Positions 47,051-60,828 of a DNA stretch of 64,000 nucleotides are shown here, one piece after another. The notes below the pieces were generated by a model. The model searched no databases, was not told the DNA's origin, and saw nothing but the letters and a program-made list of their open reading frames with translations. The position numbers were made by a program, and so were the translations under genes. Within the stretch, counting starts at the first letter, position 1; every line of letters starts with the position of its first letter. Origin of the DNA: Planctomycetota bacterium (GTDB taxonomy: Bacteria; Planctomycetota; UBA8742; UBA2392); NCBI GenBank assembly GCA_020849795.1, contig JADZFR010000002.1:62001-126000 (forward strand), read 5' to 3'.

Positions 47051-48343
47051 CTAACCCCCGACTGCATCCTCATCAGCCAGATACACTGCCTGGTGCCTCA
47101 CATCATCGAACTGCAGTTTCGTGCGCAGACCCTCAAGAAAGTCGGGGCCATAAAAATCGAGGTAGTGCAGCAGGCTCATCACCTCTTGCTGCGGTTTGCC
47201 GTCGGGCAGCAGGTAGTGAAACAGCTTGGCAAGCTGTTTGCCGTTCACGTCCATCTCACGTGCAGCTTCGGTCGTTGCGCGCTGGCGCAACTTGTCGAAC
47301 CCGATGTCGGTGTTCGTCAGCAGCTTCTTGATGTCGTTCTCGGGGTTGAAACCCAGGTCATTCAGGCCCATCTCGAAACGCAGCAACTCGGACAGCACCC
47401 GTTCTTTGACTTCGCTGAACACACCCGGAATATCCTCAGGAAGGTGCCGCTTCACGGCGTCGTCGGGATGCACTTCGCTGGCAAGCACTTCCTCGGGCTG
47501 TAACCCGAACTTGGACAGCCAGCTCTCGACCTTGCCCTCAATGACGGTGGCACTTCCGCCCGGGTAGGGCACAGGCTCGCCCGCCGGCACACCCGCCACG
47601 GGGCTGCCACTGCCAACGGCGGCAACCAGCGGTAGCTGTGTGAACAGGTTGCGCAGGTTCAGTTCATAGCCGGCGGTTGCGGACGGCTTCAGGACAGTCA
47701 GGTTATCGTCGTCGAACCAACGCAGCAGCAGGCGGGCTTTGAAGACGTCAGGATCGTCGTCGGCGGCGCGGGCAAGCTGGTCAAGCAGCAGGCTGGAAAA
47801 GCCGGTGCCCGGCAGAGTGCCGCGAAGGCCCTCGATGTACTTGTGGGCGGCACCGCCGCGAAAACCGACGTCTTCGAGCTCGCCGGTCCGTTGCATGATC
47901 GCGCTGATGCCGGTCTCGCCCCATTCGCCAATGTCGATCGCCGGCCACAGCAGCGTGACCACTTTGCCGATGCGCTTGGCCCGAAGCTGCCGCGCGAGTT
48001 CAAGCCCCGCGAACATGCGCATCACTTCGTCCATGCGCGGCGCAGCCACACCCTTGACCAGCGGTACCACGACCGCGATGGCATCGCCGCGCGTCAGCAG
48101 TTTCAGGGCGTCGCTGTGGCGCTTGGCGCCTCCGGCTTGGCGCAACCAGCGCAGCCAACCGTCTTCTTTGTCAGAGCCAATGCGGAACTCGTGGCGCGAA
48201 AGGCGCCGCGCGAGAATCTGGAAGGCCGAGAAACTCGAGCGTGGAAGCTTGCCGCGCTTTCGTGACAGCCGAACCAGAGTACGACCGCGTGTCGTGCTGG
48301 TGCGCGTGGTGGTCAGCGGAAGTTTCACGACGCGATAGGCCAT
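47051..48343 (-). CDS. Divergent BshC-like protein (putative bacillithiol cysteine ligase family)
   Basis: 430 aa from ATG 48343. The C-terminal third matches BshC well by eye: LLPDGKPQQEVMSLLHYLDF, then YGPDFLEGLR, as in the family's PnGk.QERvlN...YG..F. The middle segment FKARLLLRWFDDDNLTVLK matches as well. However, the N-terminal nucleotide-binding part, normally TGQQ.G...GP and DHD, reads AIAVVVPLVKGVAAPRMDE and WPAIDIGEWGE, so the active site looks changed or lost. It may be a degenerate or neofunctionalised BshC. No BshA or BshB gene was recognised next to it. Confidence 0.55.
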   Translation of the reverse strand: MAYRVVKLPLTTTRTSTTRGRTLVRLSRKRGKLPRSSFSAFQILARRLSRHEFRIGSDKEDGWLRWLRQAGGAKRHSDALKLLTRGDAIAVVVPLVKGVAAPRMDEVMRMFAGLELARQLRAKRIGKVVTLLWPAIDIGEWGETGISAIMQRTGELEDVGFRGGAAHKYIEGLRGTLPGTGFSSLLLDQLARAADDDPDVFKARLLLRWFDDDNLTVLKPSATAGYELNLRNLFTQLPLVAAVGSGSPVAGVPAGEPVPYPGGSATVIEGKVESWLSKFGLQPEEVLASEVHPDDAVKRHLPEDIPGVFSEVKERVLSELLRFEMGLNDLGFNPENDIKKLLTNTDIGFDKLRQRATTEAAREMDVNGKQLAKLFHYLLPDGKPQQEVMSLLHYLDFYGPDFLEGLRTKLQFDDVRHQAVYLADEDAVGG

Positions 48344-48992
48344 TGGAATCCACAACCTTCAAACAGGACGCCGGGAAGGGCCCGACGCTCGCGATTGTAA
48401 CAGTAGAAGTTACGGGTACGACTAGCGGGGAAAGGCGAGAAATAAGGGGTTTTGGGCAAGTGTCTGTTTTGTTTGGGGTTACGGAATCTGGAAAAATTCA
48501 GACAGGGCAATCTTGGCAGTTTGTGGGACTTATGTGCCAAACTGCATGACAGGTGTCAGTAACGTCGGAAATCCAAACGCCAGAGCATGTTGCGTCGCAT
48601 CACCTGGGCGTGAACTAACCGGCTGGTATTTAGTTGACAGGGCGGAACGGGAAGTTCCAGCGCAGGGCGTTCGTTCAGGCGTGTGCGGCAGCATGCTGCG
48701 ACGGTGTTTGGCTGCAGCGGCGCGTCGGCGATTGTCGGACTGTGCGTTTTGCACTCCACGAATTGTGACGCGTCGAAAAATCTTGCCGCGGAAATTCCGT
48801 GTTACGACTCGCACCGGGAAGGAATTCCGATTAGATAGGAAGAAGGAGGAGCAGGAGCCATGTTCACCTCAAACTCGCGTCGAAGTTGACCGAAGCAGCA
48901 AGGTGACAGGGCGGCTTCCCCCAGTGTATGCCCGCATTAATGCGGGCTTGACGTTTCCACCTCGACGAGCATCGGCGGGTACAGGAGAGACA
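48344..48992. other. 649-nt noncoding region of lower GC
   Basis: No credible gene was seen on either strand. The frame continuing through 48513-48992 has atypical Arg/Cys-rich composition and no start. The region has runs unusual for this window (GAAAAATTC, TGTTTTGTTTGG). Two structural elements stand out: an 8-bp inverted repeat GCAGTTTG/CAAACTGC (48516-48545) and the palindrome at 48930-48947. It probably contains the promoter and long leader of the gene at 48993. Confidence 0.5.
48930..48947. promoter_or_regulatory. Perfect 18-bp palindrome GCCCGCATTAATGCGGGC
   Basis: The palindrome has no loop and lies 46 nt upstream of the GTG at 48993. It is a plausible dimeric repressor operator or, in RNA, a hairpin followed by TTGACGTTT. 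Only one copy was noticed. Confidence 0.4.
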
Positions 48993-49373
48993 GTGACCGA
49001 GAAGACGAATATCTTTATCGATGGCGAGCACGCCGCAACGATTGAAGACCTTCAGCACGATGCGCCGTGGCACTACGGGACGTTGACCCCGGGCGACGCG
49101 TTCAAAGAACTGCGCGCATCTCTTGAGAAGGCGCCTTGGAGTGTTGGCAACGAAGACAGTGTGGAACTTGTTGCCGCCCAGGACACCGTGGACCGCGTGA
49201 GCTGGGGCCCCGATGTAGACACCAGCGAAGTGATCACCAAGTTGACGCTCGCCCAGTTTGAGCCGGACGGCCCGTGGGAGCTTGAATTCACCTCGGAATC
49301 CGACGAGAACGACGAAGACAGCGAAGACGAAAACGCCGAAGCAAACGGCGAGGCAGCCGAATCAACGGTCTAG
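48993..49373 (+). CDS. Small acidic protein of unknown function, 126 aa
   Basis: GTG 48993 is preceded by AGGAGA (spacing 6), a strong site that decides the start against the long upstream frame. The protein begins VTEKTNIFIDGEHAATIEDL, has a folded middle (TLTPGDAFKELRASLEKAPW) and ends with a very acidic tail (DENDEDSEDENAEANGEA). There is no signal peptide or membrane helix. No family is recognised. It heads the run of co-directional genes to 57640, separated from the next by a terminator-like hairpin. Confidence 0.7.
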   Translation: MTEKTNIFIDGEHAATIEDLQHDAPWHYGTLTPGDAFKELRASLEKAPWSVGNEDSVELVAAQDTVDRVSWGPDVDTSEVITKLTLAQFEPDGPWELEFTSESDENDEDSEDENAEANGEAAESTV

Positions 49374-49388
49374 TACAAGCGCCTGCGA

Positions 49389-49420
49389 GCGGCGGCGGCA
49401 ACGCCGCCGCCCGTTTCATT
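49389..49420 (+). terminator. Terminator-like hairpin with GCAA tetraloop
   Basis: A 9-bp stem GCGGCGGCG / CGCCGCCGC closed by a GCAA (GNRA) tetraloop is followed by CCGTTTCATTTG. It lies 15 nt after the stop of the acidic protein gene. Confidence 0.65.
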
Positions 49421-49576
49421 TGTCGGGGCACGCGGCGACCCAAAATCGCCAAAGCGCAATGCAACACACCACTGTCCCCTGATCCGCAATGGCGAATCGG
49501 CAATAGTGTTTGGCTTTGACAGTCCATCCACTACCTTATGTCTGCCCAGTTGGTTCACCTTTCACCGGAGCAGACA

Positions 49577-52135
49577 TTGAGCATCCTTCGCTACCTCCCT
49601 TGCGCCCTGCTGCTCGCCTGTGGTTGCGCGTTTGTTGTTGCCGCCGAAGACGCACCCAAACCCGCACCGATTGACCCCAATGAACTGAAAGCGGCCCGAG
49701 CCCTCGCCGACACACTGACCCCGCAGGAGAAGGCGCTCTACAACGCGCTTCGATACCTGCTGCGCCCCGAGTTTGAAGAGGAGCTGTTCAAAGGCAGGCG
49801 CTACCGGCCTTCTTCGTTGAAACCGTTTGAAGCCGCTACCACGGAAGCGTTCTCAGATGTTGAGGCCCTGCGCCTGTGGCTCGTGATCGAAAGCGGCATG
49901 CCGCTGACGGCCGCCGCCGACAACCACCTGCGCCGCATGATGGACACGCAGATTTCGACCACCGGCAACCTTCTCGGCCCGGCGGCGATCCAGGCGCTGA
50001 TCTGCCGCGCCGCGTTGCTGCGTGGCGACGCCCGCTCGCCGGAAGCACTGAAAGAGCGCGCCGAAATGGTCTACAAAGCCGCCCAGGAGACAAAGGCGGC
50101 AACAGCGACCAACTCGCCATTTGTCAACAAGGACACTGCCCACGCAAACTGGTTTGCGAACCACATGTGGCGCGCCGTCATCCTGCGCTGCGCCCACGAC
50201 TCGGGCGTGAAAGTCGATACCTCACTTTGGGAAACCGACCTGCGCGCGCTGTGCAAATCATGGGTGCGCAAGGGCGGCTGGACCACCAACCCCCGGTATG
50301 AACAGTTCAGCCAGACCCAGCACACGAACCAGATGGGCATGATGGCCCTGAGCCTGGCACTGAACGCGCCCGAAGGCCTGCTGTCGAAGTCCATCCAGAG
50401 CACCCTGACCAAGCAACTGAAGACCGTCACCTCCAAGCTCGAAGAATGGTCCGAGCAGTGGGAGCGCCTTGAGCCACGCGGCGCCGGCCTGTTGTTCCTT
50501 TGGGGGCTGCACAGTGAGATGACCACGGCCCGCACCAGCATGGATGTCTGGCAGCGCGACTGCCTCACGCGCTCAACCGCAAAGGCCGACTTGCGCGGCG
50601 CATTCGTGGGCCGAAACAACCTGCTGCACGACCTGGGCCTGGGAACGCGCATCACCAAGCGCGATGAAATCGAAAGCGCCGAGACGGCCCTGGCCGCGGT
50701 CGCGTTGTGCGGCGGACTGCTGCGCAGCGGAAGCGGCCCGATGTCTGCCCACACGCTGTCCTCCATCGGCCGCTATCTGCACGCGTTCGCGCTGCTGCAT
50801 GCCAGCCAGGAACGCCAGGACGGCGGCAGCTTCAATGATCGCGTCGGCTTTGCCATTGAAGACGGTTGCGCATTCCTTGAAACCAGGCTTACCGCCGACG
50901 GCAGTTTCAGCGGCGCCAACGAGTATCAACCCGGCAACACCGGAATCTGCCTGCTGGCGCTGCTGCATGGCCGTTACGCGCGGGACTCTGAGGTCATTAC
51001 GCGCGGCTTTGACAAGCTCACGACCCAATGCGAGGCAATGTCGCAGCGCGGCGTCGGCACTTACAACGCCGGCTTGATCCTGATGGCCTACCAGAAACTG
51101 TACGAGCCGGAAATGCGAGAAGCCGGCATGTTCAGCGCCAACACCGCCAAAGAGTTTGAGTCAGCGCGCGCCAAAATTCGCAAGCTGGTCAAGCGCGACC
51201 ACATGGCAGTGATTGACGCGATCATCGGCCAGCTCGACGGCTCGCGCGGGTTGCAGGGCGGCTGGGGCTACTATCCAAGCTCCAAGCTTACCCACAGCGA
51301 CAACTCTTGCACCCAGTTCGCGGTGCTTGCCTACCAGGCCGGCAGTACGCTGGGCGCCAAGGTTTCGGCCACGACCTTCAAGAATGAGGCGCAGCGCCTG
51401 ATCGACTCCTATGCCGAGGTGCAGGGCGCGCCAGCCGTGGAGTTTGAGTACACCAGCGAGGGCGTCGGCCGGACCGCCGTTGTGCACAAAGGCAAGATCA
51501 AAGCGGGTGGGTGGTCATACAGCGTCACGCGCTCCGGCGACACCATGCAGTTTACGGCAGCCGGCATCGGCAGCCTTGCGATCTGTTTGGACGAACTGAA
51601 GTCGCGAGATGCGCTGGAACAGAAGTTCGAGTTTGAAATCGCCCGGCACATCCACGGCGCGCAATTGCGCCTGGCAGCTACCTACTATACGCCGGAGATG
51701 CTGACCCAGGGTGACGGACAGCTGATGAAGATTTCCGGCGATGGCATCGGCACTTACTACAACCTTTACTCGGTCGAACGCGGCTGTGAACTTGCCGGCC
51801 TGCGCAAGCTCAGCAACGGACTTGACTGGTACATGATCGGCGCCGAGGCCTTGATTGAGGCGCAAAACCTCGACGGCAGCTGGACCGATGGCCGCGGCTT
51901 CCGCCCGGGCATGGAGCCGACACCGAACCTGATCAACTGCGCGTGGGCCATCCTTTTCTTGAAGCGCGCGGCGCCGCCCGTGTTCACCGACCACGTTCGC
52001 CGCGACCGAAACAAAGAAGAAGACACGAAAGAGCCGGAGAAGCCCAGCAGCCCGATCACACCCGGCCCCGACGAAAAGAAGGAAGCCAAAGAGAAAGAAA
52101 AGCCACCAGAGCGAAAAGTTGAGGGTGAAGACTAG
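49577..52135 (+). CDS. Toroid (prenyltransferase/squalene-cyclase-like repeat) lipoprotein, 852 aa
   Basis: TTG 49577 (GGAG 7 nt upstream) is preferred over ATG 49538, because it gives a direct signal sequence SILRYLPCALLLAC with a lipobox-type LLAC. The body is an all-helical alpha-alpha toroid. QW-type repeats include RGLQGGWGYYPSSKLTHSDN followed by CTQFAVLAYQAG, and LIEAQNLDGSWTDGRGF followed by NCAWAILFLKR. Earlier repeats are degenerate (WTTNPRYEQFSQTQHTNQ). The C-terminal tail is Pro/Glu/Lys-rich and probably disordered. The catalytic DxDD of squalene cyclases was not found, so it is unlikely to be a terpene cyclase. It is first of four envelope genes in a row. Confidence 0.82.
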   Translation: MSILRYLPCALLLACGCAFVVAAEDAPKPAPIDPNELKAARALADTLTPQEKALYNALRYLLRPEFEEELFKGRRYRPSSLKPFEAATTEAFSDVEALRLWLVIESGMPLTAAADNHLRRMMDTQISTTGNLLGPAAIQALICRAALLRGDARSPEALKERAEMVYKAAQETKAATATNSPFVNKDTAHANWFANHMWRAVILRCAHDSGVKVDTSLWETDLRALCKSWVRKGGWTTNPRYEQFSQTQHTNQMGMMALSLALNAPEGLLSKSIQSTLTKQLKTVTSKLEEWSEQWERLEPRGAGLLFLWGLHSEMTTARTSMDVWQRDCLTRSTAKADLRGAFVGRNNLLHDLGLGTRITKRDEIESAETALAAVALCGGLLRSGSGPMSAHTLSSIGRYLHAFALLHASQERQDGGSFNDRVGFAIEDGCAFLETRLTADGSFSGANEYQPGNTGICLLALLHGRYARDSEVITRGFDKLTTQCEAMSQRGVGTYNAGLILMAYQKLYEPEMREAGMFSANTAKEFESARAKIRKLVKRDHMAVIDAIIGQLDGSRGLQGGWGYYPSSKLTHSDNSCTQFAVLAYQAGSTLGAKVSATTFKNEAQRLIDSYAEVQGAPAVEFEYTSEGVGRTAVVHKGKIKAGGWSYSVTRSGDTMQFTAAGIGSLAICLDELKSRDALEQKFEFEIARHIHGAQLRLAATYYTPEMLTQGDGQLMKISGDGIGTYYNLYSVERGCELAGLRKLSNGLDWYMIGAEALIEAQNLDGSWTDGRGFRPGMEPTPNLINCAWAILFLKRAAPPVFTDHVRRDRNKEEDTKEPEKPSSPITPGPDEKKEAKEKEKPPERKVEGED

Positions 52136-52213
52136 AAGCCGGCAGGCGCGGGAAGTCGCTCGTTGCCGATGTGCAAATGCCGGCAGATGTACCTTGCGAC
52201 ACCGCATGACCGC

Positions 52214-52240
52214 GCACACATTTGGTGTGCCTTCGTTGCT
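52214..52240 (+). terminator. Weak hairpin after the toroid lipoprotein gene
   Basis: A 6-bp stem GCACAC / GTGTGC with a 5-nt loop is followed by a pyrimidine-rich CTTCGTTGCT. It lies in the 287-nt gap before the PDZ gene. It is only a candidate. The rest of the gap shows no gene. Confidence 0.3.
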
Positions 52241-52422
52241 TTCTTGCTAAACTCCTCGTTCGGGTGGCAGTTCAGAGAATCCAGCCATCAACACCTTGGC
52301 GAAATGCGTATTAACCTCTTGCAGTTGCTTGGAACTCCGTAGCTAGGTTTTGCGTCTCCAGTCAATCGAATTCTCATCCGGTGTGGTTGCGGTTTCGGCG
52401 CTTGCGCCCCAGGGGATACACA

Positions 52423-55071
52423 ATGGGCTACTCCTTCTCAAAGAGGGCACTTCTCGTTCCCGCGGTACTTTGCGGACTGGCGCTGTTCAGTACGAACTAC
52501 CAGGGAACGGACATCGAAGTCGCCCCTGCTCCGGTCGTGGTCGCAAACCACGACGCTGAACTGGAACAGCCGAAGCTGGCTCCAATCCCTGATTTTGACC
52601 CCACCCGCGTGTTGCTCGACATGGGCGGCAATGGCTCAGGCATTCAGCCGTTGCAGGGCCCAGGCATGCAGCCGCCCGGCTGGAAACCTGACCCGCCGCT
52701 GGACCTGACTGGAAAGATGCCGGCCGACGAAGAAGTTCGTGCCGCGATCGTGAAGGCCGTTGAGTTCCTGCTCGACAGCCAGAAAGAAAACGGCGCATGG
52801 GACGTAGAGCTCTCGGGCTCGCTCCTGTCCGAGACTGCCGACCAGGCCGTGGACGCCATCTCTGCGACGGCGCTGGCTGGCGTGTCGTTGCGCTATCACA
52901 TCAAGGTTGACCCGATTCGCATCGAAGCAGCACTCAAGAAGGCCATCAACTTCGTGATCGACCGCGTCTATCGCGGCAAGCTGCCGCTCGGCGTCTGGTA
53001 CGCCAACTGGCGCTACACGCTGGGGCTGAAGTTCCTGCACGGCGAATTTGTCGTCACCAAAGACGAAGAACTCAAAAACGAAATCCGCGCTGTCTCGCGC
53101 CGCATGATCAACTCCATGCTGCGACTGCAGCTGCCCCAGGACACTGCCAAGCTGCTGGAAAAGAAGCGCAAGGCCCGCATCAGCAGCCGCCTCAAGAACT
53201 CCGGTCCGGCCGGTTTGGGCGTGGTCATGAGGCCCCCCACCGATACCGAGTATCGCGGCGGCGCACCCATCGAACGGCTCATTCCCGGCGGCACTGCTGA
53301 GGGTGCGGCCTTGCAGGTTGGCGACCGAATCATCGAAGCCGAAGGTCTGCGCATTGAAAACGCGCTCGACTTCTACCTGGAAGAAGCCAACTGGCAGGGT
53401 GGCCAGAAGGTGCGCCTCAAGATCAAGCGCGACCGCGCCGAGTTCACCAAGGACATCAGCATCAAGCCGACATGGCCCGGCTATCTTGGCCTGAAGCTCA
53501 GCCCGGGCGTTGGCGAAGGCCCGATCGTCGAGAAGTTCCTGCCCTTCAGCCCTTGCCGCGACAAGCTTGAGGTGGGCGACATCATCAACGAGGTCGAAGG
53601 CAACATGATCAGCAAGATCGACGACTTCCGGGTGCACGAAAACGGCATCGTCCCGGGCAAGAAGATCAAGCTGAAGGTTCTGCGCGGCGAAAAGAAGAAG
53701 AAGACCAGCGTGACCATTGAAGCCAGTGGCGCGCCAGAAGGCTGGTTCGGCTTCATCGTCAAGGAAGAAGACAAGGGCGATGACAACGGCGTGGTGGTGG
53801 ACGGCATTCGCCCCGACCTGTCGGCTGGCGAAGCCGGCCTGCAGGATGACGACCGCGTCACCTGGGTCGGCGACACGCCGATGCTGGGCTACGACCATTT
53901 CTTTGAGTTCCTGGGCACTGTGCCCGCCGGCAAGCAGTTCAAGATGAAGTGGGTGCGCGACGGGCAAGAGATGGAGGCCGATGTAATCGCCGACGCCGTG
54001 CCGCAGCCTTTCAACCCGCAGTTCGGCGTGACGGTCGACCGCCAGTTCCGCGCCATGTGCAACCGCGTCGACAAGGGCGGCGCCGCCGAGAAGGCGGGCA
54101 TGAAGGTCGGCGACGTCTTCACTGCCATCAACGGCAACCAGACCGGCGACTTCTTCTCGTTCCGCGACGCGTATTGGGACCTGACCGCCGGCGAAGAGGC
54201 CACGTTCACGGTCGACCGCGGAGGCAAGTCCATCGAAATCAAGTATGTGCTGCCGAAGTGGGAACCCACCACCGGCGACGCTGAAGAGGGCGTCGAAGAA
54301 GGCGGCTGGGCGTATTACCCCGAAATGGGTGAAGCCCCGAGCTTTGCAACCGCGGCCGCACTCCTGGTGTTGATGGACGTGCAGAAAGACATCGACATCA
54401 AGGGCATGCGCACGACCCTGAAGGGGCCGCTGCGCAGCGCAGCCACCCTTTTGACCAACCTGCGCGAGAAAGACAGCGCACACGGCGGCGCTGAAACCTA
54501 TATGTACCGGGCCGGTTCACGCGAGCACCCGAACAACATGGGCATCGACATCCGCGGTTGCCAGGGTCGCAACGGCATCTGCGAGCTTGCCTTGAACCGT
54601 TACGGCACACGCAAGAGCGGCGACCTGAAGAAGATCATCGACCAGTTCATCCGTTACCGCAGCGAACTCGACGTGGTACGCCGTATGGAGTACTACTACA
54701 ACCCGCGCATCGGCGGCAGCCCACACAACCTTGAGCGCTGGTTCAACGCCGCTTACTACTGGCTGTTCAGCCACTACTGGACATTGATCGCCGCCAAGGA
54801 CTGCGGCAAAGCCCAGTTCAAGGACATCAACGAAATCTGCGTCAAGGCGCTGATGCAGACCCGCAACGCCGACGGCACGTGGCTGGGCCACCCCAGCTTC
54901 GGCAAGCTGTGCGGCACGTGCGAAGCCCTGTGGATCCTGGGTGAAACGGAAGGCGGCTGGAAAGACGGCTACACCCCCAAGACCCAGCCCACGGACCCGA
55001 ACAACCCGACAACGCAGGACAAGAAGACCAACCCGGACGACGAGCAACCGGAAGAAACACCCGAAGAGTAG
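52423..55071 (+). CDS. Secreted toroid protein interrupted by four PDZ domains, 882 aa
   Basis: ATG 52423 has AGGGG upstream. A signal peptide or anchor covers residues 8-24. Residues about 104-240 begin an alpha-alpha toroid (EFLLDSQKENGAWDVE; LPLGVWYANWRYTLGLKFL). Four PDZ domains follow: about 262-347 (GGTAEGAALQVGDRIIEAEG), 352-433 (KLEVGDIINEVEGN), 440-523 (GEAGLQDDDRVTWVGD) and 532-610 (KGGAAEKAGMKVGDVFTAIN). The toroid resumes at about 624-860 (LMQTRNADGTWLGHPSF, then GTCEALWILGETEGG). No protease triad is seen, so the PDZ set probably binds peptides or partners. A disordered Pro/Asp/Glu tail ends the protein. Confidence 0.88.
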   Translation: MGYSFSKRALLVPAVLCGLALFSTNYQGTDIEVAPAPVVVANHDAELEQPKLAPIPDFDPTRVLLDMGGNGSGIQPLQGPGMQPPGWKPDPPLDLTGKMPADEEVRAAIVKAVEFLLDSQKENGAWDVELSGSLLSETADQAVDAISATALAGVSLRYHIKVDPIRIEAALKKAINFVIDRVYRGKLPLGVWYANWRYTLGLKFLHGEFVVTKDEELKNEIRAVSRRMINSMLRLQLPQDTAKLLEKKRKARISSRLKNSGPAGLGVVMRPPTDTEYRGGAPIERLIPGGTAEGAALQVGDRIIEAEGLRIENALDFYLEEANWQGGQKVRLKIKRDRAEFTKDISIKPTWPGYLGLKLSPGVGEGPIVEKFLPFSPCRDKLEVGDIINEVEGNMISKIDDFRVHENGIVPGKKIKLKVLRGEKKKKTSVTIEASGAPEGWFGFIVKEEDKGDDNGVVVDGIRPDLSAGEAGLQDDDRVTWVGDTPMLGYDHFFEFLGTVPAGKQFKMKWVRDGQEMEADVIADAVPQPFNPQFGVTVDRQFRAMCNRVDKGGAAEKAGMKVGDVFTAINGNQTGDFFSFRDAYWDLTAGEEATFTVDRGGKSIEIKYVLPKWEPTTGDAEEGVEEGGWAYYPEMGEAPSFATAAALLVLMDVQKDIDIKGMRTTLKGPLRSAATLLTNLREKDSAHGGAETYMYRAGSREHPNNMGIDIRGCQGRNGICELALNRYGTRKSGDLKKIIDQFIRYRSELDVVRRMEYYYNPRIGGSPHNLERWFNAAYYWLFSHYWTLIAAKDCGKAQFKDINEICVKALMQTRNADGTWLGHPSFGKLCGTCEALWILGETEGGWKDGYTPKTQPTDPNNPTTQDKKTNPDDEQPEETPEE

Positions 55072-55089
55072 TTTCGATCAGGCAAGCCC

Positions 55090-55120
55090 AACCGCCGCGT
55101 GAATCGCGGCGGTTATCATT
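55090..55120 (+). terminator. Rho-independent-type terminator after the PDZ-toroid gene
   Basis: A perfect 10-bp stem AACCGCCGCG / CGCGGCGGTT with a TGAAT loop is followed by ATCATTTG. It begins 19 nt past the stop at 55071. Confidence 0.7.
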
Positions 55121-55221
55121 TGCACAGGTTGCCGCATCCTGACAATTTCCCTTCCCCCGGCGGGGTGATATGCGTAATCATGGTGTTCCCTCATCCTGGA
55201 TGTGCCCACGGAGACTTTCCG

Positions 55222-56388
55222 ATGCGTCTTAAGATTTTTTCCGCCTTGCTGATCACCCTTGCCGTGGCCGGCGTTTCGCAGGCCCAGGACGAAGGCAAGA
55301 TTCTTTCCGGCAAGCTGGAAGCCGCCCAGGCCACCGAGATCAAGGTGGACCTGCAGGCCTACAGTGGCGAGTTGCGACTGAAATGGATCGCCACGCCCGG
55401 CATGGCCATGAAGGCCGGCGACAAACTTGCCGAGCTTGAGGCGCCCGACTACGCCGACGCGCTGGAGCGCAGTCGCGAAGGCCTTACCGCGGCCGAACTT
55501 GGCCTGCAGGCGATGAAGGACGCAGCCAGGCAGTACGAAGACGGCTTTCCTGAGCAGGTGCTGGCGGCGCAGCGCCGCCTTGAGCGCGCCCGCGAAGAAC
55601 TGCAGTTCTTTCGCGAGGTGGACCGCAAGCAGCAGGTGCGCAACAATGAAATGAACCTCGAATCCAGCAAGTTCAGCATCGAAGACCAGGAAGAAGAGCT
55701 GGCGCAGCTTGAAAAACTGTACAAGGGCAACGATCTCGCCAAGGAGAGCCAGGACATCGTGCTGAACCGCAGCAAGCGCCGCCTGGTCCAAAGCAAAGAG
55801 CGCCACAAAATGGCCCAGGACCGCCACGACCGCTGGTTGAAAGTAGACCTGCCGCGCCGCGAACAAGACCTCGAAAGCGCGGTCAAGGGCGCCGAGCTGG
55901 AGATGCAGCGCATCGACACCCTGAAAGCCAACGGCAACGCTGACCTGAAGTCCAAGCTCACGGGTGCCGAGCGCAGGCTCAAAGATGCCGCGCAGTACCA
56001 TGCCAAGCTTGAAGCCGACTCCAAAGCGCTCGTGCTGATTGCGCCCCATGATGGCGTAATGCTCGCGGGCGGTCTTGCCGGCAATGATGGCGTCGCTATG
56101 CCGGCCAAGGCGGGCGACAAAATCAACCGCGGGCAGGCACTGGTCTCTGTCATCAACACCTCCACGCTTCACGTCACCGTGCCAGTGCTGGCCAACGCCC
56201 GCGCCAAATATCAACCGGGCACCAAGGTAGCGGTAAAGAGCGACGAGCTTGCTGTCAGCGGCAGCGGCACCGTCAAGCTGATCGGCGTGCTGGTACGTGA
56301 CGGCAAGGTCAGCGCGCGCATCGAAGTGGACAACGCCGAGGGCAAGTTCCTGCCCGGCGCCAAGGTCGGTGTTTCGCTGCCCGAATAG
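55222..56388 (+). CDS. Periplasmic HlyD-like membrane-fusion (adaptor) protein
   Basis: 388 aa from ATG 55222, with GGAG upstream. The signal peptide (LKIFSALLITLAVAGVSQAQ) is followed by a lipoyl half-motif (LEAAQATEIKVDLQAYSGEL, then MAMKAGDKLAELEAPD). A long helical hairpin with coiled-coil character spans about 90-260. The second lipoyl half is LIAPHDGVMLAGG, followed by INRGQALVSVINTSTLHVTV. This is the adaptor fold of RND, ABC and type I exporters. No pump gene is adjacent, so it either works with a distant transporter or binds the neighbouring envelope proteins. The end is 28 nt from the next start. Confidence 0.85.
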   Translation: MRLKIFSALLITLAVAGVSQAQDEGKILSGKLEAAQATEIKVDLQAYSGELRLKWIATPGMAMKAGDKLAELEAPDYADALERSREGLTAAELGLQAMKDAARQYEDGFPEQVLAAQRRLERAREELQFFREVDRKQQVRNNEMNLESSKFSIEDQEEELAQLEKLYKGNDLAKESQDIVLNRSKRRLVQSKERHKMAQDRHDRWLKVDLPRREQDLESAVKGAELEMQRIDTLKANGNADLKSKLTGAERRLKDAAQYHAKLEADSKALVLIAPHDGVMLAGGLAGNDGVAMPAKAGDKINRGQALVSVINTSTLHVTVPVLANARAKYQPGTKVAVKSDELAVSGSGTVKLIGVLVRDGKVSARIEVDNAEGKFLPGAKVGVSLPE

Positions 56389-56416
56389 TCTGATTGCTTG
56401 CCCAGCAGGAGTGCGC

Positions 56417-57640
56417 GTGCGCCCAACATTGATCATCCTTGCCGCCGTCGGGCTGGCCCTTTGCGGCTGTACGAAAAGTGCCGACAACCAGCCCGCGCCG
56501 GTAGCACCCGCGCCGACGCCAACGCCGGGTGCCACGCCGGCAGCGGGCGTGTGGAAGTACCAGCAGAACCTGGACCGGGCCGTGCGCTGGGCGCTGGACA
56601 ACCAGAAGCGGCAGGGCGACTGGGGCTACATGACCGAGCGCCCCAACGACATCTACCTCGGCAGCATCAACAGCCTGCACGTCTGGGGCAACGCCAGCAC
56701 CGCGCTGTGTCTGATGGGCCTGCTGATGCAGCCACCCACCGACGAGATCAATGCTGCGCTGGCCAAGGGCTTTGAATACCTGATTGACGCGCCAGATACG
56801 CCGCGCGCGACCATGAATACCTTTTACAACGTGTGGTCGCACACCTACATGATACAGGCCCTGACACGCGCCATGGCCGACGCGCGCTTTGCCAAAGACA
56901 AGCCGCGGCTGCGCAAACGCGCCGAACATGAGCTGCGGCGGCTGCTGGACCACCAGTCGCTCGACGGCGGCTGGGGCTATTACGACTTTGACTATCGCAC
57001 TTTGCGCCCCAGCGGCGACATCAGCACGGCGTTCACCACGGCGGCGGCGCTGGTGGCGATGCATGAAGCCTTCAAGTCCGACCTGCGCCTGGGCCGCAGC
57101 GAATCCAACCCCGACGGCGAAGGCCTGCGCGACCACAACGTGCAGATCGCGCTGGACTATCTTCAGCGCCATCGCATCCCCAACGGCGCCTACTACTACA
57201 GCAGCGGCCACATGCACCACCCACAGGGCGTGGCGAATCTGCCGCGCGGCAGCCTGGGCCGCAGCCAGTCTGGTGACAACGCGCTGAACCTGTGGGGACG
57301 CCTGGTCACGCAGGACATGCTCAAGGCGCAACTCGACACGTTTCTCGGCCCGGAACACGTGTTCATTGAAATCGGCCGCGGCCGCCAGTTCCCGCACGAG
57401 GCCTGGTACGCCACGGCGCCGTACTACTACTACTTCGGGCACTACCATGCATCGCGCAACGTGCTGGCGCTTGCCAAGGCCGACCAGCCGAAGTACGGCG
57501 ACAAGCTGGGCGAGCTGGTCGTGGCTGGCCAATACGATGACGGCAGTTTCTGGGACTACCCGCTGTATGGCTATGCCAAGCCGTATGGCACCGGGTTCGG
57601 CATCATCATCCTGAGCAACTGCAAGAAGGCCATGGAATAG
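56417..57640 (+). CDS. Second toroid (prenyltransferase-like repeat) lipoprotein, 407 aa
   Basis: GTG 56417 is preceded by AGGAG (spacing 5). A lipoprotein signal (RPTLIILAAVGLALCGC) is followed by a Pro/Ala spacer and a compact alpha-alpha toroid. Repeats include ALDNQKRQGDWGYMTERP, LLDHQSLDGGWGYYDFDYRT, ISTAFTTAAALVAMHEAF and AGQYDDGSFWDYPLYGYAKP. The C-terminal aromatic-rich segment (YATAPYYYYFGHYHASRN) is striking. No DxDD cyclase motif is seen. It is smaller than the other two toroid proteins of the cluster and is closely spaced with the HlyD-like gene. Confidence 0.85.
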   Translation: MRPTLIILAAVGLALCGCTKSADNQPAPVAPAPTPTPGATPAAGVWKYQQNLDRAVRWALDNQKRQGDWGYMTERPNDIYLGSINSLHVWGNASTALCLMGLLMQPPTDEINAALAKGFEYLIDAPDTPRATMNTFYNVWSHTYMIQALTRAMADARFAKDKPRLRKRAEHELRRLLDHQSLDGGWGYYDFDYRTLRPSGDISTAFTTAAALVAMHEAFKSDLRLGRSESNPDGEGLRDHNVQIALDYLQRHRIPNGAYYYSSGHMHHPQGVANLPRGSLGRSQSGDNALNLWGRLVTQDMLKAQLDTFLGPEHVFIEIGRGRQFPHEAWYATAPYYYYFGHYHASRNVLALAKADQPKYGDKLGELVVAGQYDDGSFWDYPLYGYAKPYGTGFGIIILSNCKKAME

Positions 57641-57652
57641 CAGCGGCGCACA

Positions 57653-58510
57653 CTACCACTTGATTGCGCCGAACATGTTCAGCATGGCGATCAACTGCTC
57701 GGCCTGCGTGTCCGGCAGTGCGGTAAGTGGCGGGCGGGCGGCATAGTCGCCGAAACCCTTCTTGCGCAGGATGGCCTTCACCGCCGGCCCCAGCCCGAAC
57801 TTCTCCAGTAGTCCGCGGACACTGTTCAGTTTGACCTGTTGCCCGGCTTTGCGCTCGATGCTCTTGACCAGGTCCGGGATTACGCTCGCACACGCGGTAA
57901 TGCTGCCCCGGCCACCGTCTTCCAGGCACTTCGCGATCAACCTGTCATGGCCCACCATGTATGAGCCATCGCGGAACCACCCCAGCAGGCGCGCCATCTC
58001 GGCCTCGTCGCCGGTGCTGTCTTTGACGCCGACGCAGCGCTCATGCTTGCGCACGATCTGAAGAAGTTCGTCCGAGATCGGGATGCCCGTCAGCCGGGGA
58101 ATGTGGTACAGGATCACGGGCAGGCGCGATTGATCCAGCACGCGCAGAAAAAAGTCCGCAATCCCGCGCGTGCTCGCGTCGCGGAAGTACCAGGGCGGCG
58201 GACAGATCACCGCATCGTACCCCAGGTCGGAGGCGAACTCCGTCATGTCCAGGACATCCTCCAGCGCACAAGAGCCAACGTTCAGGATCAGCTTCAAGCC
58301 GCTTTCCGCCTTGGCGGCGGTTTCCGCGGCAAGCTTTCGCTCATCGCGTGAAGAGCTGGCGAACTCGCCGTTCGTGCCCAGGATCAGCGCGCCGTCCAGG
58401 CCCTCGCTTTTCAGCCACTTCAGGTGCGCCGACAAGGCATGACTGTCCAGAGTGTCTTCACGCGTCAGCGGCGTAGGAACGGGTGCAAATGCCCCCTTGG
58501 GTAGATACAT
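57653..58510 (-). CDS. DapA-family aldolase/lyase
   Basis: 285 aa from ATG 58510 (GAGGG 5 nt upstream; an ATG at 58540 is also in frame). It is a TIM-barrel member of the dihydrodipicolinate synthase / N-acetylneuraminate lyase family. The Schiff-base lysine is in CVGVKDSTGD and the catalytic Tyr in PVILYHIPRLTG. The pyruvate-binding motif is GTNGEF, not the GTTGE of true DapA, which points to an oxo-acid aldolase related to HOGA1 or KDG aldolase. The substrate is uncertain. Neighbours give no pathway clue. It is divergent from the cyclase gene. Confidence 0.88.
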   Translation of the reverse strand: MYLPKGAFAPVPTPLTREDTLDSHALSAHLKWLKSEGLDGALILGTNGEFASSSRDERKLAAETAAKAESGLKLILNVGSCALEDVLDMTEFASDLGYDAVICPPPWYFRDASTRGIADFFLRVLDQSRLPVILYHIPRLTGIPISDELLQIVRKHERCVGVKDSTGDEAEMARLLGWFRDGSYMVGHDRLIAKCLEDGGRGSITACASVIPDLVKSIERKAGQQVKLNSVRGLLEKFGLGPAVKAILRKKGFGDYAARPPLTALPDTQAEQLIAMLNMFGAIKW

Positions 58511-58599
58511 TGGTCCCTCGATCAGCCCTGTTTGGTCCATAGTCTACGGTCAAGCACCATGCAGCGTCGACCGTGTACGCAAACCAAGTGAGCCAGCAT

Positions 58600-60828
58600 A
58601 TGTCTACCAGCCGCATGCAGAAAAACCTCACCGTAATGTTCACCGACATCTCGGGCTTTACCAAGCACACCGAGACGATCAGCCGGCAGGACCTGATGTC
58701 GCGGCTCGACACACATAACGAGCTGCTTATGCCGATCGTGGCGCACTTTGACGGCAAGATCGTCAAAACCATCGGCGACGCTTTCTTGATCACGTTCGAG
58801 AGCCCGACCAACGCCGTGCAGTGCGGCCTGTTCATGCAGCACACCCTGCGCAAGTTCAACGTGGGCAAAGACGAGTCCCACGCGATTCACATCAAGGTCA
58901 GCATCAACAGCGGCGAGGTCACGGTCACAGAAAACGACGTCTTCGGCGACCCGGTCAACGTCGCCGCCAAGATTGAGAAAGCGACCAACCCTGACGAAAT
59001 CTACTTCACCGAGGCCGTGTTTCTGGCCATGAACAAGTCCGAGGTGCCGACTTCGTTCGTCAAGACCTTCCGCCCCAAGGGCGCCGAGAGCAACGAAATC
59101 AAGCTGTACAAAGTCGCGATGGACGAAGCCGATGAGCGCTACCAGAAGGTCATCAAAGGCACCAACATCGACAAGGAAAAGAACAAGACGCGCGTGCTTG
59201 AGTTGACCACCCTGGCCGAAAAGGAATTCACGCGCTACCAGGATACGCTCGAGGCGTTGGTCGAAAGCCAGGGCAAGTCGTCGCGCGGCATGGTGATCGC
59301 CGTGATCGCCGCGGCGCTGATCCTGGCAACTGCGATTATCGTCGGCTTGGCCGTCTTCAGCGGCCCGGCGGAGAACCCCGAAGGCAAGGTGATTGAAAGC
59401 GCCCGCGCTTACCTGTCATCTGGCAAGCCCGAAGATGCGCGCACTCTGCTGCTCAAGCACATCGAGGCCCACGGCGGCAGCGACGCCCTGAAAGACGCGC
59501 TGGCCGAAGTGGACACGTATGAACTGAACGCAGCCACCCGCACCACCGAAGAGTTGCTGGCCGGCGACCGGCCCGACCAGGCGCTGAGCGCCATCAAGGC
59601 GGCGCTGCGCGACCGCGCGCCATCGGACGTCCACAAAGCGCTGATCCAGCGCGCGCAGGCGTACGTGGATGCCCGCAGTGCCCTGGCTGAGGGCGATTCG
59701 GCCAAGTGTCTCGCGCTGACCGAAATCGCAGCCGGAGAAAAGGGCTTCACCGATGGCTTGAAAAGGTTGCGCGAGCAGGCCCAGGCAATCGACTCGGCCA
59801 GGAAGACCATCCAGGACGAAAAGCTGCTTAAAGAACAGAGCAACGCCGCCCTCGAAAAGCTGGCGATGGCGTTCGGAGACCAGCCAAGCATTCCGCTGGT
59901 GATCGACCTGATGAAGCAGGCATTGTCCTCAAAACAATACTGGGACGCGCGCAACAAAAGCTACGCCGAGGCCAAGACCCAGCTTGAGCGCTACCGGCAG
60001 CGCTTTCTCACCATCGGCGACTGGTCGATCATTGAGCGCGACATGCATCTTGGCGGCTTCTGGAACTACGCGACGGACACGGGCATGCGCCGCAACTGGT
60101 GGAGCTGGTACGACACCAACTGGCAGAACCACTACAAGCTGCTCTGCGACGCCGCCGCCAACGACCCGGACTTCGAGTACACGCTGGGTGTAAACATCTA
60201 CGGCATCAACCGCCGACTTTCCCTGGTCCGCACCAACGAGCAGAACCACGTCGGCAACGCGATCAGAAAGAAGCCCGAACTCTTTGAGGCCAACCGCGCC
60301 GCGATCAAAGACATGGTCATGAACTGGCTGGCCTACGGCATGCAGGACGACGACCTCGCGCGTGAACTGGTCCGCAAGCACTTCTACGAAGAGATTCGTG
60401 ACTGGCTGGTCGAGGGCCTGACAGCAAGCTCGAAGTACATGGGCGAAGTCCGGCCCGAGTTCTCGAAACGCCAGAACTGTTTCGCGCTGCTGGCAGACCG
60501 GGCCGAGTTGGGCTCAATCACCGACCCCTTCGGGTACTTCCGCGACAATTTCGAGATCTTCATGGAAAACAACTGGCCCGGGGTCGATGAAGCGGGCAAC
60601 CCGGTGGCGACGGCCTTGACGCGCGAACAGGTCAGGCGTCTCTTCGAGATGAAAATGAGCCTCGACGACTACAAAGAATTCCGGCGCCTGATCGGACAGA
60701 CGATGGACGACATCGGCGCCAAAACCGGGCGTTGGAGCATTTACACCTATGCGCGCGAAACGATCCGCATGATGCTTGAGGACCTGAAGGCAGCGCAGCC
60801 GGCACATGAAGCAGCAATCTCAGAATGA
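58600..60828 (+). CDS. Class III nucleotide cyclase with membrane helix and helical extension
   Basis: 742 aa from ATG 58600 (a GTG at 58573 is possible). The cyclase domain spans residues about 8-185. Metal Asp residues are in VMFTDISGFTKHTET and KTIGDAFLITFES; the adenine-type Lys is in VKTIGD and the Asp in FGDPVNVAAKIEK. The catalytic Asn is present (VN), but the usual Arg of NxAAR is Lys. It is therefore probably an adenylate cyclase with possibly reduced activity. One membrane helix (about 230-253, MVIAVIAAALILATAIIVGL) precedes a TPR-like region and a C-terminal helical domain rich in Trp (WWSWYDTNWQNHY). The cyclase domain is N-terminal and cytosolic; the helical domain is outside. 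Confidence 0.9.
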   Translation: MSTSRMQKNLTVMFTDISGFTKHTETISRQDLMSRLDTHNELLMPIVAHFDGKIVKTIGDAFLITFESPTNAVQCGLFMQHTLRKFNVGKDESHAIHIKVSINSGEVTVTENDVFGDPVNVAAKIEKATNPDEIYFTEAVFLAMNKSEVPTSFVKTFRPKGAESNEIKLYKVAMDEADERYQKVIKGTNIDKEKNKTRVLELTTLAEKEFTRYQDTLEALVESQGKSSRGMVIAVIAAALILATAIIVGLAVFSGPAENPEGKVIESARAYLSSGKPEDARTLLLKHIEAHGGSDALKDALAEVDTYELNAATRTTEELLAGDRPDQALSAIKAALRDRAPSDVHKALIQRAQAYVDARSALAEGDSAKCLALTEIAAGEKGFTDGLKRLREQAQAIDSARKTIQDEKLLKEQSNAALEKLAMAFGDQPSIPLVIDLMKQALSSKQYWDARNKSYAEAKTQLERYRQRFLTIGDWSIIERDMHLGGFWNYATDTGMRRNWWSWYDTNWQNHYKLLCDAAANDPDFEYTLGVNIYGINRRLSLVRTNEQNHVGNAIRKKPELFEANRAAIKDMVMNWLAYGMQDDDLARELVRKHFYEEIRDWLVEGLTASSKYMGEVRPEFSKRQNCFALLADRAELGSITDPFGYFRDNFEIFMENNWPGVDEAGNPVATALTREQVRRLFEMKMSLDDYKEFRRLIGQTMDDIGAKTGRWSIYTYARETIRMMLEDLKAAQPAHEAAISE

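Follow-up and report, generated by a model that had tools for sequence, protein, structure and literature searches.

A conserved adaptor-toroid gene pair as a candidate envelope module in Planctomycetota and Verrucomicrobiota, with a PDZ-split toroid in one family

Closest described systems and layout of the locus

MFP adaptors (HlyD, MacA, AcrA and CusB; PF13437, TIGR01730) have a lipoyl/barrel core, and in tripartite efflux and type I secretion systems a pump gene adjoins the adaptor gene. Squalene-hopene and other type II terpene cyclases (PF13243, TIGR01507; MstE) have a toroid fold with QW-like repeats. DUF6288 proteins (PF19805), which are common in Planctomycetota, join PDZ and toroid in one protein. 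HtrA/DegP proteases and RseP have PDZ domains that those of gene B, described below, resemble. The locus described here has features of all of these systems. It lies in a 64,000-nucleotide stretch of a 3.97-Mb Planctomycetota genome; this whole stretch is called the window, and the taxonomic family of its genome is called the host family. Four genes, A-D, are flanked by minus-strand genes, and the intergenic spacing is about 290 bp for A/B, about 150 bp for B/C and about 22 bp for C/D.

47051-48355, minus strand: BshC-like gene
48993-49373, plus strand: small acidic ORF upstream of A, probably outside the unit
49538-52135, plus strand: gene A, exported 865-aa alpha-alpha-toroid protein with signal peptide
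52423-55071, plus strand: gene B, toroid split by PDZ domains (start codon ATG 52423, or possibly the upstream GTG at 52381)
55222-56388, plus strand: gene C, HlyD/MFP-like periplasmic adaptor with signal peptide
about 56411-57640, plus strand: gene D, toroid lipoprotein with lipobox LCGC, Cys20
57653-58540, minus strand: DHDPS gene

A preliminary description of this DNA had recognized four plus-strand genes for exported proteins, and these are real and conserved. It had also noted a small acidic protein ahead of these genes. The acidic ORF has no family match in a Pfam search, its relatives occur in only two other loci (L036 and L040) and a GC-rich terminator-like stem follows at 49389-49411 on its 3' side, although the total count of such sites equals that expected by chance. 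Because of its few relatives and the stem after it, the ORF was left out of the unit, to which it probably does not belong judging by sequence, and the acidic protein was dropped as a subunit for want of conservation. A promoter scan of this GC-rich genome found nothing. Among the surrounding genes, the match of the BshC-like gene lies mainly in the C-terminal coiled coil and scores far under the equivalog cut-off, and a plus-strand gene at 58573-60828 of the window encodes a fusion of an adenylate/guanylate cyclase catalytic domain with a TPR-like region.

The adaptor and its toroid partner

The product of gene C passes the PF13437 (HlyD_3) cut-off (29.5 bits, cut-off 22.2) and matches MFP profiles too. 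A profile of 24 C homologues aligns to MacA, CusB and AcrA over both lipoyl halves and the barrel, and C has the lipoyl and beta-barrel core of MFP adaptors. Between the lipoyl/barrel parts lie roughly 115 residues, a hairpin that is unaligned to solved adaptors in the matches shown. It carries a signature that is conserved in C's own family.

55696-55770, plus strand: C hairpin signature ELxQLxxxY...(S/T)x(D/E)I(V/I)xxR

E159, L160, L163, Y167, I179 and R183 are invariant among 24 sequences, and the strict signature pattern is found in 43 of 49 adaptors. Compared with described MFP adaptors, C has a hairpin motif of its own, no linked pump or channel, and a toroid as its constant partner; host-family C also lacks the C-terminal membrane-proximal domain that most homologues outside the host family have.

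Pairing of adaptor and toroid was counted for the 79 best adaptor matches in 244 Planctomycetota genomes. A toroid gene lies directly downstream on the same strand in 72 of the 79, with a median gap of 64 bp. The C-D pair also occurs in one Lentisphaeria genome, and 13 of 195 Verrucomicrobiota genomes have the toroid, which is preceded by the adaptor in at least 10 and is usually present as two tandem copies. Toroids with no detected adjacent adaptor exist in some genomes, for example in family f40. The co-occurrence across genera that the preliminary description had named as a check is therefore found for the C-D pair; it does not extend to B, which is restricted to the host family, or to A, which is loosely linked. 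These neighbourhoods mark C-D as a conserved two-gene unit, and synteny supports the partnership well. At one locus (L062:6328-9835), a single adaptor gene is followed by three tandem toroid copies.

The adaptor has no pump gene beside it, as had been claimed. No ABC ATPase lies beside the C-D pair in 52 loci, and an all-against-all comparison found no third conserved gene beside the pair in more than 7 of them, an antisense toroid shadow aside; the absence of RND pumps near the pair rests on this lack of a conserved third family. C might still be an ordinary efflux or secretion adaptor whose pump and channel are encoded elsewhere, with the toroid lipoprotein as an accessory. Other MFPs are known to share unlinked partners, C matches MFP profiles, and the pump-touching membrane-proximal domain is kept by most homologues outside the host family, all of which would fit such an adaptor. 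We regard this as somewhat unlikely because neither an ABC pump nor a conserved third gene accompanies the pair in the 52 loci, the toroid takes the place of a pump as constant neighbour, the membrane-proximal domain is lost in the host family and the hairpin is unaligned to known ones. The claim that the system matches no known one also stands within the literature and databases searched: text searches of the literature returned no description of the C-D unit, and no profile covers it.

Gene D encodes an alpha-alpha toroid with QW-type repeats that matches SQHop_cyclase_C in Pfam (E=8e-8). Its AlphaFold model has twelve main helices (pLDDT 83, pTM 0.82), and its nearest solved folds, at TM about 0.35-0.54, are MstE, short squalene-hopene cyclases, AprG, sugar 2-epimerases, complement TED domains, GH76 and GH105. 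A polysaccharide lyase is also among the nearest folds, and the closest toroid enzymes reach TM 0.43-0.54. The CGEQ thioester motif of alpha-2-macroglobulin/complement TED is absent from the A, B and D sequences, although the fold search gives a weak match to TED. According to the model, D shares the toroid superfamily fold and has no close relative among solved structures. There are 24 invariant columns among 31 D homologues with identity down to 30%, including R284, R323, PHE328-330, GH343-344 and D382. The lipobox is present in 24 of these homologues, all host-family members included.

Automatic annotation makes such toroids terpene (hopanoid) cyclases. The SQHop_cyclase_C match and the position of MstE and short squalene-hopene cyclases as best folds speak for this, as does a slight rise of A. 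muciniphila 'terpene cyclase/mutase' genes with ox-bile (PMC7671984). Against it, the DxDD motif is absent in A, B and D, as had been noted from the outset, and D reaches 39.3 bits with the hopene cyclase profile TIGR01507, for which the cut-off is 431.1. Moreover, the toroids here have other invariant residues and are exported or lipoproteins paired with an adaptor, whereas known terpene cyclases sit on the cytoplasmic side. Terpene cyclisation was rejected on the missing DxDD and on profile scores far under cut-off, and we consider it highly improbable. Exported toroid proteins should not be tallied as hopanoid enzymes.

The presence of AprG, GH76, GH105, polysaccharide lyase and sugar 2-epimerases among the nearest folds, the invariant H/E/D/R/Y residues and an operon with GH43 genes in Akkermansia would also suit secreted glycan enzymes of the lyase, hydrolase or epimerase class, for which the adaptor is merely a scaffold. 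This seems unlikely to us: at TM about 0.5 the fold matches are poor, with terpene cyclases at the top, glycosidase neighbours were seen in Akkermansia-type genomes only, and key residues differ among D, B and the Akkermansia copies. R284, H329 and H344 of D are kept in B as R716, H768 and H784, but E330 is not, and Akkermansia has Tyr in place of H344; these two differences make it doubtful that all copies share one catalytic mechanism.

Host-family additions: gene A and the PDZ-split toroid

The preliminary description had counted two toroid lipoproteins, A and D. The assignment holds for D with its conserved lipobox; that of A is not conserved in its relatives, which leaves D as the one convincing lipoprotein. 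Gene A itself has no Pfam match, two of its relatives match SQHop_cyclase_C, and its profile aligns with that of D in hhalign (probability 98, E=6e-14), which makes it a distant toroid. The A family has several copies per genome, and A adjoins B in 7 of the 14 host-family genomes where adjacency is judgeable, by our count. A is not a fixed member of the cluster on this count; being multi-copy and loosely associated with the operon, it was downgraded from core subunit.

Gene B had been described as a toroid with halves parted by four PDZ domains, and Pfam, split alignment and structure model agree on this.

52726-53178, plus strand: N-terminal toroid half of B, helices 1-5 (hhalign against D residues 49-186: probability 98.6, E=9e-16)
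53191-54240, plus strand: PDZ array of B, four domains (Pfam PDZ/PDZ_2 and NCBIfam stretches)
about 53191-53424, 53518-53730, 53779-53997 and 54049-54240, plus strand: the PDZ domains of B
54256-55002, plus strand: C-terminal toroid half of B, helices 6-12 (hhalign against D 183-405: probability 99.6, E=9e-24)

Rejoined without the PDZ array, the two halves align to D in one piece of 327 columns that spans the entire ring (E=4.5e-36). This places the array in just one QW-type loop of a D-like toroid, the loop that links helices 5 and 6. The AlphaFold model, with five main helices, four PDZ folds and seven main helices, agrees with the split alignment. The best 50 matches in the fold search with B are all PDZ proteins, PDZ structures of DegP, DegQ and RseP being matched, and ring closure was assessed by split-profile alignment instead. 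Only PDZ models pass the cut-off in Pfam, which gives no trypsin-like protease domain in B. By these alignments, B is a paralogue, or duplicate, of D with a PDZ array inserted in one loop, and it shows clearly that a ring fold has taken in a domain array with both halves still recognizable.

Assignment of B to DUF6288 was rejected. PF19805 gives 15.3 bits against a cut-off of 26.3, in the PDZ region only, and the architectures differ: DUF6288 has one PDZ domain before the toroid, whereas B has four inside it. DUF6288 aligns by profile to the D-type toroid family and, like B, is a member of the toroid superfamily. A DUF6288 protein, PDZ then toroid, is encoded outside the window in the same genome (G000:C2:36862-38016).

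The PDZ-split toroid is present in all 15 sampled host-family genomes and, except for C-half-only matches in one genome, was not found elsewhere among the 244 genomes. It adjoins C in 12 of the 15, again by our count. The position of B and A beside C-D could be an accident of lineage, with C-D alone as the functional unit; the limitation of B to one family and the multi-copy state of A, adjacent in about half of host-family genomes, point that way. We find this quite improbable given that B is kept beside C in 12 of 15 host-family genomes and is a direct paralogue of D. From synteny and the shared fold we infer that A-D could form one envelope complex. The core is two genes and is wider than one locus, and the window holds a host-family-specific elaboration of it. 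Divergent second PDZ-split paralogues (about 40% identity) occur at G000:C25:194-2512 (L002) and at L024-L028, in tandem in one genome, and no adaptor lies within 1.5 kb of B's second paralogue.

Proposed module and the Akkermansia copy

The best reading of the sequence evidence is that C-D would be a dedicated envelope module of the PVC superphylum, composed of an MFP-type adaptor and a lipid-anchored toroid. Our tentative preference is for a pumpless periplasmic adaptor-toroid complex that acts on an envelope ligand. In such a complex, C and D would bind each other, with the hairpin signature of the adaptor as the likely docking surface, and D, anchored in the outer membrane, would stand where efflux systems have a TolC-like channel. 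The invariant Arg/His/Glu/Asp/Tyr set may line a ligand or catalytic pocket, for which a glycan or other envelope component would be a likelier ligand than squalene. In the host family, B, and loosely A, would contribute PDZ arms able to capture the C-termini of proteins or unfolded stretches. A fuller version, which is possible but which we hold with more doubt, is a new trans-envelope assembly in the PVC superphylum: an MFP-type adaptor would dock a toroid lipoprotein, not a TolC-like channel, without a dedicated pump, and the PDZ array of the host-family duplicate would recruit clients. The module spans the phylum and beyond, yet it is masked by 'terpene cyclase' or missing annotation.

The module is also present in the widely studied human gut bacterium Akkermansia muciniphila. 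On the chromosome of strain ATCC BAA-835, an adaptor gene at 818416-819600, unrecognized by any Pfam or NCBIfam model, is followed by toroid genes at 819620-820846 and 820850-822103. These tandem toroids appear to be exported and lack DxDD. Two GH43 genes follow directly, the first with a 4-bp overlap, and module and GH43 genes together occupy L205:3700-10376, which is chromosome 817699-824375. The GH43 genes Amuc_0697 and Amuc_0698 have been listed as important for growth of A. muciniphila on mucin (PMC12834350). With these as the GH43 genes listed, gene order points to Amuc_0695-0696 as the probable toroid genes and to Amuc_0694 as the probable adaptor gene. Tag spacing suggests that the toroids are probably AMUC_RS03775 and RS03780. 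Location of the module before mucin-growth GH43 genes in this bacterium makes its role testable. A bile-response study took AMUC_RS03775 and RS03780, tandem A. muciniphila 'terpene cyclase/mutase' genes, for hopanoid synthesis genes; their reported increase with ox-bile was very small (log2 about 0.2-0.27) (PMC7671984). At least one of the tandem pairs in that study appears to belong to the exported toroid family, and the evidence presented here speaks against a hopanoid role for the Akkermansia tandem toroids. In Akkermansia and other Verrucomicrobiota, the adaptor gene is preceded by an ORF that we read as methyltransferase/spermidine-synthase-like and that has no Pfam match.
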